From positions 1,240,001 to 1,304,000 of the forward strand of contig NZ_CP096120.1 of NCBI RefSeq assembly GCF_023158935.1: a stretch of DNA of 64,000 nucleotides, given 5' to 3'. The first letter of the stretch is position 1. Every line of letters begins with the position of its first letter. Under the pieces are notes generated by a model that searched no databases, was not told the DNA's origin, and saw nothing but the letters and a program-made list of their open reading frames with translations. The stretch comes from Acinetobacter portensis (lineage in GTDB: Bacteria; Pseudomonadota; Gammaproteobacteria; Pseudomonadales; Moraxellaceae). Below are positions 32,026 to 59,417 of the stretch, piece by piece. Made by a program: the position numbers and the translations under genes.

Positions 32026-33081
32026 TTAGGCGCTTAACTTAATTTCACTGCATCTTAAAGTAGATGCAATATCATTTAAAAGCTGTTCTGTTTTTTCCCA
32101 GCCTAAACAACCATCTGTAACAGATTGCCCATAAGTCATGTCACAAGAGATTTTTTGATTACCATCTACCAAATGACTTTCAAGCATTACACCGCGAACA
32201 TTTGTTTTTAAGCGTTCCGCAACTATTGTTTTTAACACGTCTGGTTGATTAAGTGGATCTTTCGCACTATTACCGTGACTGCAATCAATGACTAATGCAG
32301 GTAACTCGCCTTTAACTTTTTGCTTAATTTTATCAATTTCAGCAATTGAGAAGTTTGCGCCTGTATTTGAACCACGCAAAATTAAATGTGCGTGTGGATT
32401 TCCCTCAGATTCAATAATTGAAGGTAAGCCAGATTGGCTTAAACCTAAAAATTGATGCGAGTTTGATGCAGATTGAATGGCATCTAAAGCGATTTGAATT
32501 GAACCATCTGTACCATTTTTGAAGCCAATGCTGAAAGGCATGTGACTTGAAATTTCACGGTGAATTTGAGATTCACTCGTTCTTGCACCAATTGCACCCC
32601 AAGCAAGTAAATCATCGAAATATGCTGTTGCCATTGGGCTTAATATTTCAGATGCAAGCGGTAAGCCCATTTCAATAAGTTGTAAGTATAATTGGCGTGA
32701 TTTTTCTAAGCCTAATTGCATATTTGCAGATCCATCTAAATTTGGATCGTATAAAAAGCCTTTCCAGCCGACAGTTGTACGTGGCTTTTCGATATATGCA
32801 CGCATAACAAGGAATATTTGGTCAGATACTTGCGCTTGTAGTTCTATTAATTTTTCAGCGTATTCAAGTACTGCAACAGGATCATGAATTGAACATGGTC
32901 CTGTAATCACCATCAAACGTTTATCTGTACCATTTAAAATATTTTGAACCGTTTGACGATGTTGTGAAATTTGCTGCGCTAATTTTGCAGATAATGGTAA
33001 AGCAGCCTTTAACTGTATTGGTAGGCTTAAAGTCGTTTCTTTGTTCGTTGTTTTTTCTAATGTATTTACTAAAGCGTTCAT
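32026..33081 (-). CDS. DAHP synthase, class I (leader-controlled isoenzyme)
   Basis: 351-aa 3-deoxy-7-phosphoheptulonate synthase, joining phosphoenolpyruvate and erythrose-4-phosphate as the first step of aromatic amino acid synthesis. Family marks: ITGPCSIHDP, RAYIEKPRTTVGWKGFLYDP, GARTSESQIHRE, FKNGTDGS, IDCSHGNS. It belongs to the AroF/G/H type. Which amino acid inhibits it cannot be read safely. The ATG has AAGGA seven bases upstream. The 504-bp region before it holds a promoter, two aromatic-rich leader ORFs and an attenuator, so transcription is expected to follow aromatic tRNA charging. A second isoenzyme is at 53686. Confidence 0.92.
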   Translation of the reverse strand: MNALVNTLEKTTNKETTLSLPIQLKAALPLSAKLAQQISQHRQTVQNILNGTDKRLMVITGPCSIHDPVAVLEYAEKLIELQAQVSDQIFLVMRAYIEKPRTTVGWKGFLYDPNLDGSANMQLGLEKSRQLYLQLIEMGLPLASEILSPMATAYFDDLLAWGAIGARTSESQIHREISSHMPFSIGFKNGTDGSIQIALDAIQSASNSHQFLGLSQSGLPSIIESEGNPHAHLILRGSNTGANFSIAEIDKIKQKVKGELPALVIDCSHGNSAKDPLNQPDVLKTIVAERLKTNVRGVMLESHLVDGNQKISCDMTYGQSVTDGCLGWEKTEQLLNDIASTLRCSEIKLSA

Positions 33082-33094
33082 TCTTTATTCCTTT

Positions 33095-33113
33095 GGACTG
33101 TGTTTTCCAGTCC
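33095..33113 (-). promoter_or_regulatory. Hairpin between second leader ORF and DAHP synthase RBS
   Basis: On the minus strand GGACTG and CAGTCC pair around a 7-base loop. It lies right after the second leader's stop codon and directly before the AAGGA ribosome site. There is no T run, so any effect would be on translation or RNA stability. Confidence 0.6.
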
Positions 33114-33119
33114 GATCAT

Positions 33120-33215
33120 TTATTTAAGCATATTGGGTCTGGTGGATTGCGTCATAAGTTGACTAAAGTAAAACCAATAAGAGTTGCTAAAATATGACAA
33201 AGTAAATGTTTTCAT
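33120..33215 (-). CDS. Second aromatic-rich leader ORF (31 aa)
   Basis: ATG 33215 has a strong GGAGA ribosome site six bases upstream. The 31-residue product begins MKTFTL and contains SYFSNSYWFYFS (residues 7-18), eight aromatic residues in the first 17, five of them in a row (YWFYF, 13-17). It ends TRPNMLK with a stop at 33120-33122. It lies downstream of the attenuator terminator and 38 bp before the DAHP synthase ATG. It is most likely a second leader peptide that senses Phe/Tyr/Trp tRNA charging, though a genuine small protein is not excluded. Confidence 0.7.
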   Translation of the reverse strand: MKTFTLSYFSNSYWFYFSQLMTQSTRPNMLK

Positions 33216-33247
33216 TAAAATTCTCCAAAATATGAATCAAAAGACAT

Positions 33248-33310
33248 AAAAAAACCCGATCAGGTTGCCCCGATCAGGTATAAACTTGTGGGCAACCTAT
33301 TTGCTTGCCC
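33248..33310 (-). promoter_or_regulatory. Transcription attenuator of the DAHP synthase gene
   Basis: On the minus strand the terminator has arms CCTGATCGGG (33269-33278) and CCTGATCGGG (33255-33264), which pair with two G-T wobbles around the tetraloop GCAA and are followed by seven T. Upstream GGTTGCCC (33290-33297) can pair with GGGCAACC (33263-33270) and break the terminator, while GGGCAA (33305-33310) can in turn capture TTGCCC (33290-33295). TTGCC at 33322-33326, just past the leader stop codon, can occupy that GGGCAA. This gives the ordered, mutually exclusive stems expected for an attenuator. Confidence 0.8.
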
Positions 33311-33326
33311 AAACGCATTCAGGCAA

Positions 33327-33383
33327 TTATCTAAACTGCCAGAAATAATAAGTTGCGTTTGAGATCACAGGTTGCTTTAACAT
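33327..33383 (-). CDS. Attenuator leader peptide of DAHP synthase (18 aa)
   Basis: Short ORF on the minus strand encoding MLKQPVISNATYYFWQFR, then TAA. Codons 12-15 and 17 specify Tyr, Tyr, Phe, Trp and Phe, covering all three end products of the pathway whose first enzyme is encoded downstream. A ribosome slowed there would cover GGCA (33337-33340) and leave TTGCC (33322-33326) free to disturb the pro-terminator stem; a ribosome at the stop codon would cover TTGCC and permit termination. The ribosome site is weak. It lies about 30 bases after the predicted transcript start. Confidence 0.85.
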   Translation of the reverse strand: MLKQPVISNATYYFWQFR

Positions 33384-33417: not shown

Positions 33418-33446
33418 AACATACCTGTAGTTAGTTACTTTGACAA
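33418..33446 (-). promoter_or_regulatory. Promoter of the DAHP synthase leader transcript
   Basis: On the minus strand TTGTCA (33441-33446) and TATGTT (33418-33423) are separated by exactly 17 bp, a good sigma-70 match. It would start the RNA near 33411, before the first leader ORF. Confidence 0.65.
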
Positions 33447-33536
33447 GATATTTTTTGTGTAATATTCAAATTAACTGAAATATTTTATGCAATATTTCAT
33501 CTGCTAAGGATGAATCTAAGGCTTTCATCCTAAAAT

Positions 33537-33562
33537 AAAAAGCCTAATAAATTAGGCTTTTT
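33537..33562 (-). terminator. Terminator of frmA
   Basis: AAAAAGCCTAAT (33537-33548) and ATTAGGCTTTTT (33551-33562), perfect 12-bp arms, after the frmA stop on the minus strand. Confidence 0.88.
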
Positions 33563-33585
33563 TTAAATGCTATAAATTTACAAAC

Positions 33586-53685: not shown

Positions 53686-54798
53686 ATGACCAAACCAGTG
53701 ACGGCAATGAATACACTACAGTCAAATCCTATTACACAGCCAGATATCGACGACGTGAATATTGAAAGTTTTCAACCACTCGTAACTCCAGCACAATTAA
53801 AAACAGAATTACCTTTGACTGAAACTGCTTATCAAACAGTACTTCATGGTCGTGAGACAATTCGTAATATTTTAGATGGTCAAGACAAACGACTATTTGT
53901 CGTTATTGGTCCTTGTTCTATTCATGACCCTGTTGCTGCGCATGAATATGCAGATCGTTTAAAAGTTTTAAGTGAAAAAGTAAAAGATACTTTATATATT
54001 GTTATGCGTGTTTATTTTGAAAAACCACGTACAACTGTAGGTTGGAAAGGTCTAATCAATGACCCAGATATGAACGACTCTTTCAACATTGAAAAAGGTC
54101 TTCGTTTAGGTCGTAAACTACTTGTTGAATTAAACGAAAAAGGTTTACCTTGTGCAACTGAAGCACTCGATCCAAACTCACCACAGTATTATCAAGATCT
54201 AATTTCTTGGTCTGCAATTGGCGCACGTACAACGGAAAGCCAAACACACCGTGAAATGTCTTCAGGCTTATCTTCACCTGTTGGCTTTAAAAATGGTACA
54301 GATGGTGGTTTAACTGTTGCAACAAATGCAATGCAATCTGTTAAGCATAGCCATAGCTTCCTTGGCTTAAATGAACACGGTCAAGTTTCTGTGATTCGCA
54401 CAAGCGGCAACCCTTATGCACACGTTGTTTTACGTGGTGGTAATGGAAAACCTAACTACGATGCTGGCTCTGTAGCAGATGCTGAAGCAGCTTTAGCGAA
54501 AGCAAAAGTAAGCAACAAAATTATGATTGATGCTAGCCATGCTAACTCAAACAAAGACCCGTACTTACAACCTCTTGTTCTTAAAAATTTAACAGAACAA
54601 ATCTTAGATGGTAACAAATCTATTGTAGGTATTATGGTTGAAAGCCACTTGAAAGGCGGTCGTCAAGACATTCCAGAAAATCTATGTGACCTAGAATATG
54701 GCAAGTCTGTTACAGATGGCTGTATCGATTGGGAAACTACAGAAAATACACTATTAGAGATGGATGCGGCATTAAAAGCTGTTTTACCAAATCGCTAA
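53686..54798 (+). CDS. DAHP synthase, class I (second isoenzyme)
   Basis: 370-aa isoenzyme of 32026-33081 with the same reaction. Marks: IGPCSIHDPVAAHEYADR, RVYFEKPRTTVGWKGLINDP, GARTTESQTHRE, FKNGTDGG, IDASHANS. Compared with the other copy it has about 20 extra N-terminal residues. No leader ORF, terminator or attenuator is visible in the 106 bp before it; ATG 53707 is an alternative start. It therefore appears regulated differently, perhaps only by allostery. A terminator follows at 54815. Confidence 0.92.
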   Translation: MTKPVTAMNTLQSNPITQPDIDDVNIESFQPLVTPAQLKTELPLTETAYQTVLHGRETIRNILDGQDKRLFVVIGPCSIHDPVAAHEYADRLKVLSEKVKDTLYIVMRVYFEKPRTTVGWKGLINDPDMNDSFNIEKGLRLGRKLLVELNEKGLPCATEALDPNSPQYYQDLISWSAIGARTTESQTHREMSSGLSSPVGFKNGTDGGLTVATNAMQSVKHSHSFLGLNEHGQVSVIRTSGNPYAHVVLRGGNGKPNYDAGSVADAEAALAKAKVSNKIMIDASHANSNKDPYLQPLVLKNLTEQILDGNKSIVGIMVESHLKGGRQDIPENLCDLEYGKSVTDGCIDWETTENTLLEMDAALKAVLPNR

Positions 54799-57762: not shown

Positions 57763-59007
57763 TTATACTGGATGTTTAGCAGCAATAATTTGGCTTACCA
57801 TTGCTGCTGTTACCGCAGATAATGTCCAACCTAAATGTCCATGACCAGTGTTATAGAACACACGCTCACGTTTGCCTTCACGTACTACAGGCATCATATT
57901 TGGCATCATTGGACGTAAACCCGACCAAGGTACGGCATGTTCTGTAGATACATCAAAGTTACGATTTACCCAATCTACCAAAGGCTGAATTCGGTCTGCG
58001 CGAATATCACGGTTATATCCATTATATTCCGCAGTTCCTGCAATACGGAAACGATCTTCACCTAAACGAGAAGTCACAATTTTTGCACTTTCATCTAATA
58101 AGCTTACCCAAGGTGCATTTTCTACACTCTTAGCATCGTTTAAATTTACCGTAATTGAGTAGCCTTTTACTGGATAAATATTGACACGATCACCCAACAT
58201 ATCTGCAAGTTGATAACTACCAACACCACCACAAACCAATACTGCATCAGCATTTAAAGAAACAGATTCTAAATCCTCATCGTTCATATTTTCATCACTT
58301 TTACTATAAATGACTTCAACACGATCTGCATGATGTTTTACATCTATTACATTGGTACCAAATAAATATTTAACACCATTTCGTTCCGTAACTTTTGCTA
58401 AACCTGTTGTGAATCTATGAATATCACCTGTCGCATCACCTGGACAGTAGAAACCGCCGTAGTAATCACCTTTTAATGTCGGCTCAATTTCCTTAATCTC
58501 TTGATTCGTTACACCGTGACGTTCCAAACCTGCTTTACACAGCATATCATTTACTTTAATCGCGACATCATAATCATATTTATTATGATAGAAATGCAAA
58601 ATTCCGCGTTTTTCTAAATTGAAATCGATTTTTTCTTCATCTGCAATTTCAAATAAACGCTTACGTGCAAGCAAAGCCAAACGTACTGTTTCATGCGTAT
58701 TCGCTTCATAATGAGGAATATTAGCCATGAATTCGAATAGCCAACTGTATTTATGTAAGCTAAAAGATGGATTGAGCAAAAGTGGAGCCGATTTTTGCGA
58801 CATCCATTTTATGCCTTTTAAAATGGTAGATTTCTGATTCCAAACTTCAGCATTACACGCTGAAAGCTGACCACCATTTGCAAATGACGTTTCCATTGCA
58901 GGATATAAATGTCGATCTAAAACAGTAACTTGATAACCAAGTTGTGAAAGTTCATAGGCCGATGTAACACCCGTAATACCAGCACCAATTACAATAATAT
59001 GTGGCAT
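57763..59007 (-). CDS. D-amino acid dehydrogenase-like flavoprotein (DadA type)
   Basis: 414 aa from ATG 59007, chosen because AAAGGAG stands just upstream and the protein starts directly with the FAD motif VIGAGITGVTSAYEL; the longer open frame to 59082 would run into a riboswitch aptamer. GSRL-like FAD contacts and the C-terminal GHGHLGWTLS are those of DadA. It deaminates D-amino acids or glycine and passes electrons to the respiratory chain at the inner membrane. The tandem glycine riboswitch upstream points to glycine (or a glycine-related substrate) as its trigger, so it probably acts in glycine use or detoxification. Confidence 0.88.
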   Translation of the reverse strand: MPHIIVIGAGITGVTSAYELSQLGYQVTVLDRHLYPAMETSFANGGQLSACNAEVWNQKSTILKGIKWMSQKSAPLLLNPSFSLHKYSWLFEFMANIPHYEANTHETVRLALLARKRLFEIADEEKIDFNLEKRGILHFYHNKYDYDVAIKVNDMLCKAGLERHGVTNQEIKEIEPTLKGDYYGGFYCPGDATGDIHRFTTGLAKVTERNGVKYLFGTNVIDVKHHADRVEVIYSKSDENMNDEDLESVSLNADAVLVCGGVGSYQLADMLGDRVNIYPVKGYSITVNLNDAKSVENAPWVSLLDESAKIVTSRLGEDRFRIAGTAEYNGYNRDIRADRIQPLVDWVNRNFDVSTEHAVPWSGLRPMMPNMMPVVREGKRERVFYNTGHGHLGWTLSAVTAAMVSQIIAAKHPV

Positions 59008-59040
59008 AAGCACTCCTTTGGACGCTCTGTTCCTTGTGTA

Positions 59041-59226
59041 TGCCCCATCTGTCATTTGTACCTGAGAGCTTCGATTCAGCATTTAAATAAATGATAAACC
59101 TTCCCCTTCGGTGAGTGCCTTTATATGCACTTCTCTCCAGATTTTTTGATTATTACAGTCCTTTTGCCTGAGAGTTTCCTGGGGTGTTGCTCCTTCGGCG
59201 AGCACGTCAATGTGCTTCTCTCCTGC
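59041..59226 (-). ncRNA. Tandem glycine riboswitch
   Basis: On the minus strand two aptamers follow each other. The first (about 59150-59226) has GGAGAGAAGCAC, GCCGAAGGAGCAA and CTCTCAGGCAAAAGGAC; the second (about 59041-59141) has GGAGAGAAGTGC, ACCGAAGGGGAAGG, GCTCTCAGGTACAAATGAC and GATGGGG. The linker is about ten bases and A-rich. No clear terminator lies between the second aptamer and the gene; the AAAGGAG site is 35 bases downstream, so translational control is likely. It fits the well-known glycine-on class. The rest of the 450-bp gap, up to 59418, shows only AT-rich promoter-like sequence. Confidence 0.92.
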
Positions 59227-59417
59227 AATAATCTATTATGTTATTTACGAGCAATTCTTATACCAATTTAAAATTTAAATTATTTTAATTTCTAAGATGT
59301 CTAATTTACGCTCAAACCAAGCTTATAGATTAAACAATACAAATTCAATAGCCCACTATTGAACTATTGTTACAACTTAAGTCGATAGTTTAAGACGTTT
59401 AATGTATTTTATAGATA

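Follow-up and report, generated by a model that had tools for sequence, protein, structure and literature searches.

The his, trp and pheA attenuators of enterobacteria combine a short leader peptide in which the regulated amino acid is abundant, helices that exclude one another, an intrinsic terminator, and a stop codon at which one of the pairing segments is masked. The trpL, pheL and pheST attenuators are summarised in the available text of PMC11802643, which also describes the AroR leader of Corynebacterium glutamicum (Neshat et al., 2014, via PMC11802643); this leader, with Phe-Tyr-Phe, lies before the aroF DAHP synthase operon, and transcription goes up under Phe limitation. Since the AroR leader precedes aroF, attenuation of a DAHP synthase gene is already on record in another organism. 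The mgtCBR leader of Salmonella holds two attenuators in tandem, mgtM and mgtP, both acting on transcription, with ATP and proline as their signals (PMC3641672, available text). A comparative study of Proteobacteria describes control of DAHP synthase genes by TyrR and TrpR in several lineages (PMC5343134), and the portion of that study available to us makes no mention of an Acinetobacter leader. A term search of an attenuator survey (PMC2965389) finds none of the words Acinetobacter, aroG, aroF, DAHP, aromatic and Moraxell-, and one of a structured-RNA survey (PMC2864571) finds Acinetobacter only in a reference. Among the open-access matches listed, none describes the aroG leader; the subscription literature, including older attenuator surveys, lies outside that scope.

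Here we describe the region upstream of a gene for a class I DAHP synthase, which we refer to as aroG, in a 64,000 nt stretch of DNA from Acinetobacter portensis (hereafter "the window"). Two aromatic-rich ORFs lie in tandem before the gene: ORF1, in an element that we call leader 1, and ORF2, between leader 1 and aroG. Judged from sequence comparison and folding models, leader 1 is very probably a ribosome-mediated transcription attenuator, similar to that of his, that senses the charging of aromatic tRNAs. It is likely that the explanation of the tandem leader as a whole holds, namely that aromatic tRNA charging controls the DAHP synthase gene of Acinetobacter. All of the features named in the original prediction are on the minus strand (Table 1).

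Table 1. Features of aroG and its tandem leader, with positions in the window.
Feature	Position	Strand	Evidence
Sigma-70-type promoter, TTGTCA-17-TATGTT	33418-33446	-	9/12 consensus matches
ORF1, leader peptide MLKQPVISNATYYFWQFR*, 18 codons, ATG 33383 to TAA 33327	33327-33383	-	peptide ends ATYYFWQFR
5' segment, GCAACCTGT, ORF1 codons 3-6, potential to pair with C	33367-33375	-	minimum-free-energy fold and covariation
Tyr-Tyr-Phe-Trp codons of ORF1	33350-33339	-	within ORF1
Segment A, UUGCC, immediately 3' of the ORF1 stop codon	33322-33326	-	leader comparison
Segment B, GGGCAA, alternative partners A or C	33305-33310	-	A:B, covariation alignment; B:C, complementarity
Segment C, GGTTGCCC (GGUUGCCC), alternative partners 5' segment, B and D	33290-33297	-	near-invariant in alignment A2
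Segment D, GGGCAACC, within the terminator, putative antiterminator partner of C	33263-33270	-	leader comparison
Intrinsic terminator, 11-pair stem 33279-33254, loop GCAA, seven T 33254-33248	33248-33279	-	terminator scan
ORF2 ribosome-binding site, GGAG	33223-33226	-	GGAG- or AGGA-like sites in relatives
ORF2, second leader peptide, MKTFTLSYFSNSYWFYFSQLMTQSTRPNMLK*	33120-33215	-	aromatic-rich ORF at the same place in relatives
Hairpin GGACUG-gaaaaca-CAGUCC, between ORF2 stop and aroG ribosome site	33095-33113	-	covariation
aroG ribosome-binding site, AAAGGA	33089-33094	-	conserved in alignment A1
aroG, class I DAHP synthase gene	32026-33081	-	NF009395, 473 bits (cut-off 343); TIGR00034, 413 bits (cut-off 173)

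The gene upstream of aroG encodes a glutathione-dependent alcohol dehydrogenase (TIGR02818; 33586-34695), and the leader features fall between the two genes. After the alcohol dehydrogenase gene, the minus strand has a hairpin flanked by A and T (AAAAAGCCTAAT / ATTAGGCTTTTT, 33537-33564), which is probably the terminator of that gene, separating it from the aroG leader; the hairpin is absent from the output of the terminator scan. A second class I DAHP synthase, 50% identical to aroG, is encoded on the plus strand at 53686-54798 (NF009395, TIGR00034), and inspection by eye of the bases before its start revealed no obvious aromatic leader peptide. The window also includes a glycine riboswitch aptamer (59146-59235, minus strand, 73.7 bits), just upstream of an ORF on the same strand (57763-59082) that, by eye, looks like a D-amino-acid dehydrogenase gene.

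Several properties of leader 1 can be seen in the window itself. At least five Phe, Tyr or Trp codons, with all three kinds represented, occur within eight codons in 8 of the 935 ATG-initiated ORFs of 8-45 codons, and two of these eight are ORF1 and ORF2; three mononucleotide-shuffled windows gave counts of 4, 4 and 2. The Shine-Dalgarno sequence of ORF1 is weak. The leader folds with z = -5.76 relative to shuffled sequences, with none of 200 shuffles as good. Promoter-like sites are common (5 found, versus 3.5 in shuffles), so the promoter match is no evidence by itself. No Rfam leader family (Phe_leader, Trp_leader and others) reached its gathering score on the leader strand, where the only match was to anti-hemB (14 bits, cut-off 49.5); a weak Phe_leader match (23.4 bits, cut-off 55) lies on the other strand, at 33509-33566.

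The strongest evidence for leader 1 comes from comparison: it is conserved in 80 relatives and at ten further loci. A protein search with aroG yielded 148 relatives, the best 80 of which were kept as loci, 79 titled Acinetobacter and one Moraxellaceae. Together with the window and ten further loci, these make up 91 leaders; the ten are what was used from 12 further stretches, the other two being a false positive (L095) and a repeat (L098) of the leader in L067. ORF1 includes Tyr, Phe and Trp in 91/91 leaders, with a mean aromatic fraction of 0.32, and the ORF1 peptides of all 80 loci are of the type MLKQPxxxNAYYYFWQFR or MLKHTVNTNAYFYFWQY. Segments A, B, C and D and the T-run were found by pattern in 89 of the 91 aroG leaders and by eye in the remaining two, and their order is conserved. 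In the 89 leaders measured, the start of UUGCC lies at -1 to +2 nt relative to where the stop codon ends, such that a terminating ribosome should cover it. Codon-position divergence in ORF1 (65 leaders) is 0.168, 0.175 and 0.339 for the first, second and third positions, respectively, meaning that changes are mainly at third positions. The best-scoring promoter has TTGTCA and a 17-base spacer in 74 of the 91 leaders.

From the letters of the window, the original prediction had described a promoter with 17-bp spacing, an 18-codon ORF with Tyr-Tyr-Phe-Trp-Gln-Phe, exclusive stems ending in a terminator with seven T, and a DAHP synthase gene downstream. Each of these is present where it was placed, with both DAHP synthase family models scoring above their cut-offs, and what had been observed is thereby confirmed; the interpretation as an attenuator is supported by comparative anatomy. 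Lack of conservation in relatives, which would have counted against it, was looked for and is not the case in the 91 leaders. Two features had been missed: ORF2, and the helix between ORF1 codons 3-6 and segment C (5':C).

Covariation provides partial support for the 5':C and A:B helices. We used alignments of chosen sequences, 42 in A1 and 39 in A2. In A2, 98.4% of cells are paired in the A:B helix, with both-side changes at one of eight pairs; all cells (100%) are paired in the terminator helix; and for the two helices jointly the values are 99.3% and one of 18 pairs. Two of the five covariation measures for this A:B and terminator alignment are not above shuffles. For the 5':C helix, formed by ORF1 codons 3-6 and GGUUGC, 82.1% of cells are paired, versus 79.2 in shuffles, and one of its pairs is U-A in 23, A-U in nine and U-G in two of the 39 sequences. 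The covariation score of this helix is 0.136 versus 0.089, with 0/500 shuffles as high, although kinship alone can beat such shuffles; the counts of double-change pairs and of pair types, two of the five measures, are not above shuffles. A covariation analysis had been put forward with the original prediction as a check, and its outcome is mixed: the 5':C score exceeds that of all 500 shuffles and the A:B and terminator pairs are kept, but two of the five measures are no higher than in shuffles.

We propose that a ribosome stalled at the Tyr-Tyr-Phe-Trp codons of ORF1 would leave UUGCC (A) free to pair with GGGCAA (B). With A:B formed, GGUUGCCC (C) would pair with GGGCAACC (D) before the terminator is completed, and RNA polymerase would continue. 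A ribosome at the ORF1 stop codon would instead cover A, leaving B or the 5' segment to hold C, and the terminator would form. If ORF1 were not translated, its own codons 3-6 would hold C, and termination would also be expected.

To model these states, we masked a ribosome footprint, which we took to cover 12 nt upstream and 15 nt downstream of the first P-site base, and folded the RNA as far as D, using the 82 distinct leaders among the 89 with all segments found by pattern. When the A site is at Trp or at any of the three preceding codons, modelled A:B pairing has a mean of 0.96; it falls to 0.81, 0.21 and 0.01 when the A site lies one, two and three codons past Trp, respectively. An A site further upstream, four to eight codons short of Trp, gives about 0.7, and RNA without a ribosome gives 0.40. 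For the strain of the window, modelled A:B pairing approaches 1 at Y, Y, F and W and at no other position. Modelled C:D pairing in RNA ending at D averages 0.92 at Trp, 0.55 at the stop codon and 0.70 without a ribosome; before the terminator is complete, the values for the Trp stall and the stop codon differ by more than 0.2 in 42/82 leaders, and the difference is never reversed. In RNA ending after C, B:C pairing exceeds 0.5 at the stop codon in 37/82 leaders and at Trp in 13/82. In the folding model for the window strain, the later helices do not separate the ribosome states: C:D pairing is 0.87-1.0 in every ribosome state (RNA ending at D), and in RNA ending after C, there is almost no B:C pairing, with C bound by the 5' segment at 0.97-1.0 in all three states, including the Trp stall.

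When the complete leader is folded at equilibrium, the three states are not told apart: in each, the terminator averages 0.95-1.00 and C:D pairing 0.05 or less. Because the full-length equilibrium favours the terminator throughout, the decision to terminate would have to be kinetic, and antitermination would rest on the order of co-transcriptional folding. The chain that had been predicted, from stalling to UUGCC:GGGCAA to GGUUGCCC:GGGCAACC, is supported by its segments and their order in 91 leaders and by A:B pairing that tracks the ribosome; against it, the full leader at equilibrium always forms the terminator, and the later helices of the window strain are flat. The shift in A:B pairing comes from the model, and we infer both that ribosomes stall at ORF1 and that stalling decides termination. 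Leader 1 has a short ORF rich in end-product codons (ORF1), an intrinsic terminator between that ORF and the gene, and chained alternative helices, with the complementary segments present in all leaders and A:B pairing dependent on the position of the A site.

A terminator in every state at equilibrium is also what might be seen if leader 1 were a plain terminator, preceded by a small ORF that arose by chance, or the source of a small RNA, without aromatic control. We consider this highly improbable, since the Tyr, Phe and Trp codons of ORF1, the order of the segments and the spacing from stop codon to A are kept in 91 leaders, beyond the needs of a bare terminator. An alternative possibility is that leader 1 senses mainly one of the three amino acids and that its remaining aromatic codons are incidental. 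Trp, which is present in every ORF1, marks the furthest position at which a stall leaves A:B intact, as this alternative would have it; we nonetheless think it unlikely that a single amino acid dominates, given that Tyr and Phe are also found in 91/91 leaders, within the permissive positions.

We searched 149 sampled genomes of the family, 41 of them from Acinetobacter, with two models, R1 and R2. R1, a model of leader 1, matches 39/41 Acinetobacter genomes and 1/108 other genomes. We rejected this one match (G102, 2.3e-5) as a case of spread to another genus; we read it as a false positive, because its stretch (L095) is without an aromatic leader peptide and has what looks like a ribosomal-protein ORF before a terminator. 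Two of the 41 Acinetobacter genomes (G101 and G119) have neither leader 1 nor leader 2, and their only DAHP synthase is ~50% identical to aroG. In 15 genomes of other genera there is also only one DAHP synthase match, at 46-50% identity; aroG and its leaders therefore appear specific to the genus. The R2 search suggested that eight genomes with leader 1 lack leader 2; this was rejected, as an aromatic-rich ORF2 can be read in all eight.

ORF2 starts ~30 nt past the leader 1 terminator. An aromatic-rich ORF2 is present in all 91 leaders: in the window, in 80/80 loci and in the ten further loci (L087-L094, L096 and L097; L087 by eye). For the analyses of ORF2 we used 87 distinct sequences of 89, leaving out L087, where ORF2 overlaps aroG, and L091, where the gene start string was not found. 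Tyr and Phe occur in all 87 peptides and Trp in 81; divergent examples are MSDHFNFYFFYSQSYLSQ in L088 and MKNDFNLFFGFYRDS in L089. No NCBIfam or Pfam family matches the four ORF2 peptides tried. Codon-position divergence is 0.216/0.264/0.316 in the ORF2 core, a weak signature, and 0.325/0.328/0.318 in the last eight codons, where a coding signature is absent (81 of the 87 sequences in both cases). The end of ORF2 (33129-33120, minus strand), GCUCAAAUAA in most relatives and GCUUAAAUAA in the window, is highly conserved despite having no coding signature, and in some species His replaces Leu in it. Two candidate explanations involving this end were discarded: a boxA/nut-like reading of GCUCAAAUAA plus the hairpin was dropped for a mismatch in the core, and a duplex between the ORF2 core and the RPxxLK end of the same ORF was not convincing (mean z 0.24, rank 0.52). 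In L087 (G028:C10), ORF2 seems, by eye, not to end before aroG but to continue into its coding region in a different frame.

The hairpin between ORF2 and the aroG ribosome site shows strong covariation: 100% of cells are paired, with both-side changes at 3/5 pairs and 0/500 shuffles as high (42 sequences). Its stems take forms such as GGACUG/CAGUCC, GGGCUG/CAGCCC, GGGUUGC/GCAAUCC, GGGCAG/UUGCCC and GAGCA/UGCUC. The hairpin beats 95% of shuffles in 77/85 sequences; the GGGU/ACCC stems of L088 and L092 fail this test. The distance from the ORF2 stop codon to the aroG ATG is 25-45 nt (sd 3.4), or 13-22 nt (sd 1.2) with the hairpin removed (n = 85). L090 and L094 have no room for the hairpin, with distances of 8 and 17 nt, respectively. 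The terminator scan found no second T-tailed terminator on the minus strand between ORF2 and aroG, and in this respect the leader is not a tandem of the mgtCBR type.

Our leading idea for the genus, put forward tentatively and drawing on folding models, is that ORF2 may act as a translational attenuator that opens when ribosomes stall on its aromatic codons. ORF2, which has a good ribosome site, ends just upstream of the hairpin and the aroG ribosome site; in this second stage, a ribosome stalled on the ORF2 aromatic codons would free the aroG start for translation. In the model, opening the aroG ribosome site and start costs a mean of 5.5 kcal/mol in free RNA, 3.4 with a ribosome on the ORF2 core and 6.4 with a ribosome at the ORF2 stop codon (87 sequences); the core value favours the attenuator reading because it is the lowest of four neighbouring stall positions, single positions averaging 3.3-4.0 kcal/mol. 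The core cost is lower than the stop cost by more than 0.5 in 75/87 sequences, and lower than the free cost in 55/87. In the window strain the cost is nearly flat, at 1.7 (free), 1.7 (core) and 2.9 (stop) kcal/mol. We compared the stop-minus-core difference with controls at one stall position, using 21 of the 87 sequences, hand-picked for diversity, and 14 random versions per control. The difference exceeds that of synonymously recoded controls by a mean of 1.4 kcal/mol (16/21 above), that of shuffled-ORF2 controls by 1.9 kcal/mol (17/21), and that of shuffled-spacer controls by 0.75 kcal/mol (only 12/21). In L003, L009 and L020, UUUAUUGGUUUU, with the Tyr-Trp-Phe codons, forms 12 bp with the sequence surrounding the aroG AUG (~-12 kcal/mol). 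Strong pairing of this kind between the ORF2 core and the aroG start is found in 31/79 species rows of a tree (79 proteins, bootstrap not settled); it is scattered (13 changes) and absent from the window strain and its closest relatives. Coevolution of the ORF2 core with the aroG start was considered and rejected: in comparison with duplexes whose tails were swapped, the native ones rank 0.50 (mean -6.8 versus -6.3 kcal/mol).

The near-constant distance from the ORF2 stop codon to the aroG ATG with the hairpin collapsed (sd 1.2) would suit a different role, in which ORF2 is a translational coupler: a ribosome finishing ORF2 would melt the hairpin and aid initiation at aroG, such that translation of aroG follows that of ORF2. 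The same can be said of the short distances in L090 and L094, of the apparent reading of ORF2 into aroG in L087, and of the footprint, from which a ribosome at the ORF2 stop codon should reach the 5' arm of the hairpin. Nonetheless, a ribosome at the stop codon raises the mean modelled opening cost of aroG relative to free RNA, lowering it by more than 0.5 in 15/87 sequences. Coupling would also leave the aromatic run unexplained, and starvation would then reduce synthesis of the needed enzyme. We regard coupling as rather unlikely. Lastly, ORF2 could be a relic of an older attenuator whose hairpin has lost its T-run, no longer regulatory. The absence of a T-run, the high variability of the ORF2 peptide in divergent species and the weak codon signature are in keeping with a relic; the persistence across the genus of ORF2 and of the hairpin, with changed but matching stems, and the aromatic richness kept despite sequence change, are not, and we consider it improbable that ORF2 has no function left. 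If ORF2 is, as we tentatively suggest, a translational attenuator, it is conceivable, though somewhat doubtful, that the two ORFs form a double gate for one signal. tRNA charging would decide completion of the mRNA at ORF1 and then its translation at ORF2, whose Tyr-Trp-Phe codons, pairing with the aroG start in many species, would be covered by the stalled ribosome. Such a gate would allow quick shut-off of aroG on existing mRNA once aromatic amino acids return.

If our explanation of leader 1 is correct, the entry step of the aromatic pathway in Acinetobacter is under the control of a ribosome-sensing RNA, with one peptide reading three products. ORF2, with ~90 natural variants, would offer a natural system for asking whether one tRNA signal gates both transcription and translation of one gene. 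Leader 1 has the layout of the his, trp and pheA attenuators, with a peptide, exclusive helices, an intrinsic terminator and a stop codon positioned for masking; whereas those peptides each report one end product, ORF1 combines Tyr, Phe and Trp, and its target is the first shared step. Like Salmonella mgtCBR, as described in the available text, the Acinetobacter leader has two short ORFs in one leader; the mgtCBR ORFs answer different signals and both act on transcription, whereas the Acinetobacter ORFs are both aromatic-rich and a second T-tailed terminator was not found. In E. coli, TyrR and TrpR regulate the DAHP synthases at the same metabolic control point, but as DNA-binding repressors rather than through an RNA leader (PMC5343134, available text). 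The AroR leader of C. glutamicum, insofar as the source text describes it, differs in belonging to another phylum, in having no mention of Trp, and in having one leader peptide described; as with leader 1, its leader peptide lies before a DAHP synthase gene, providing a direct precedent for attenuation at this step.
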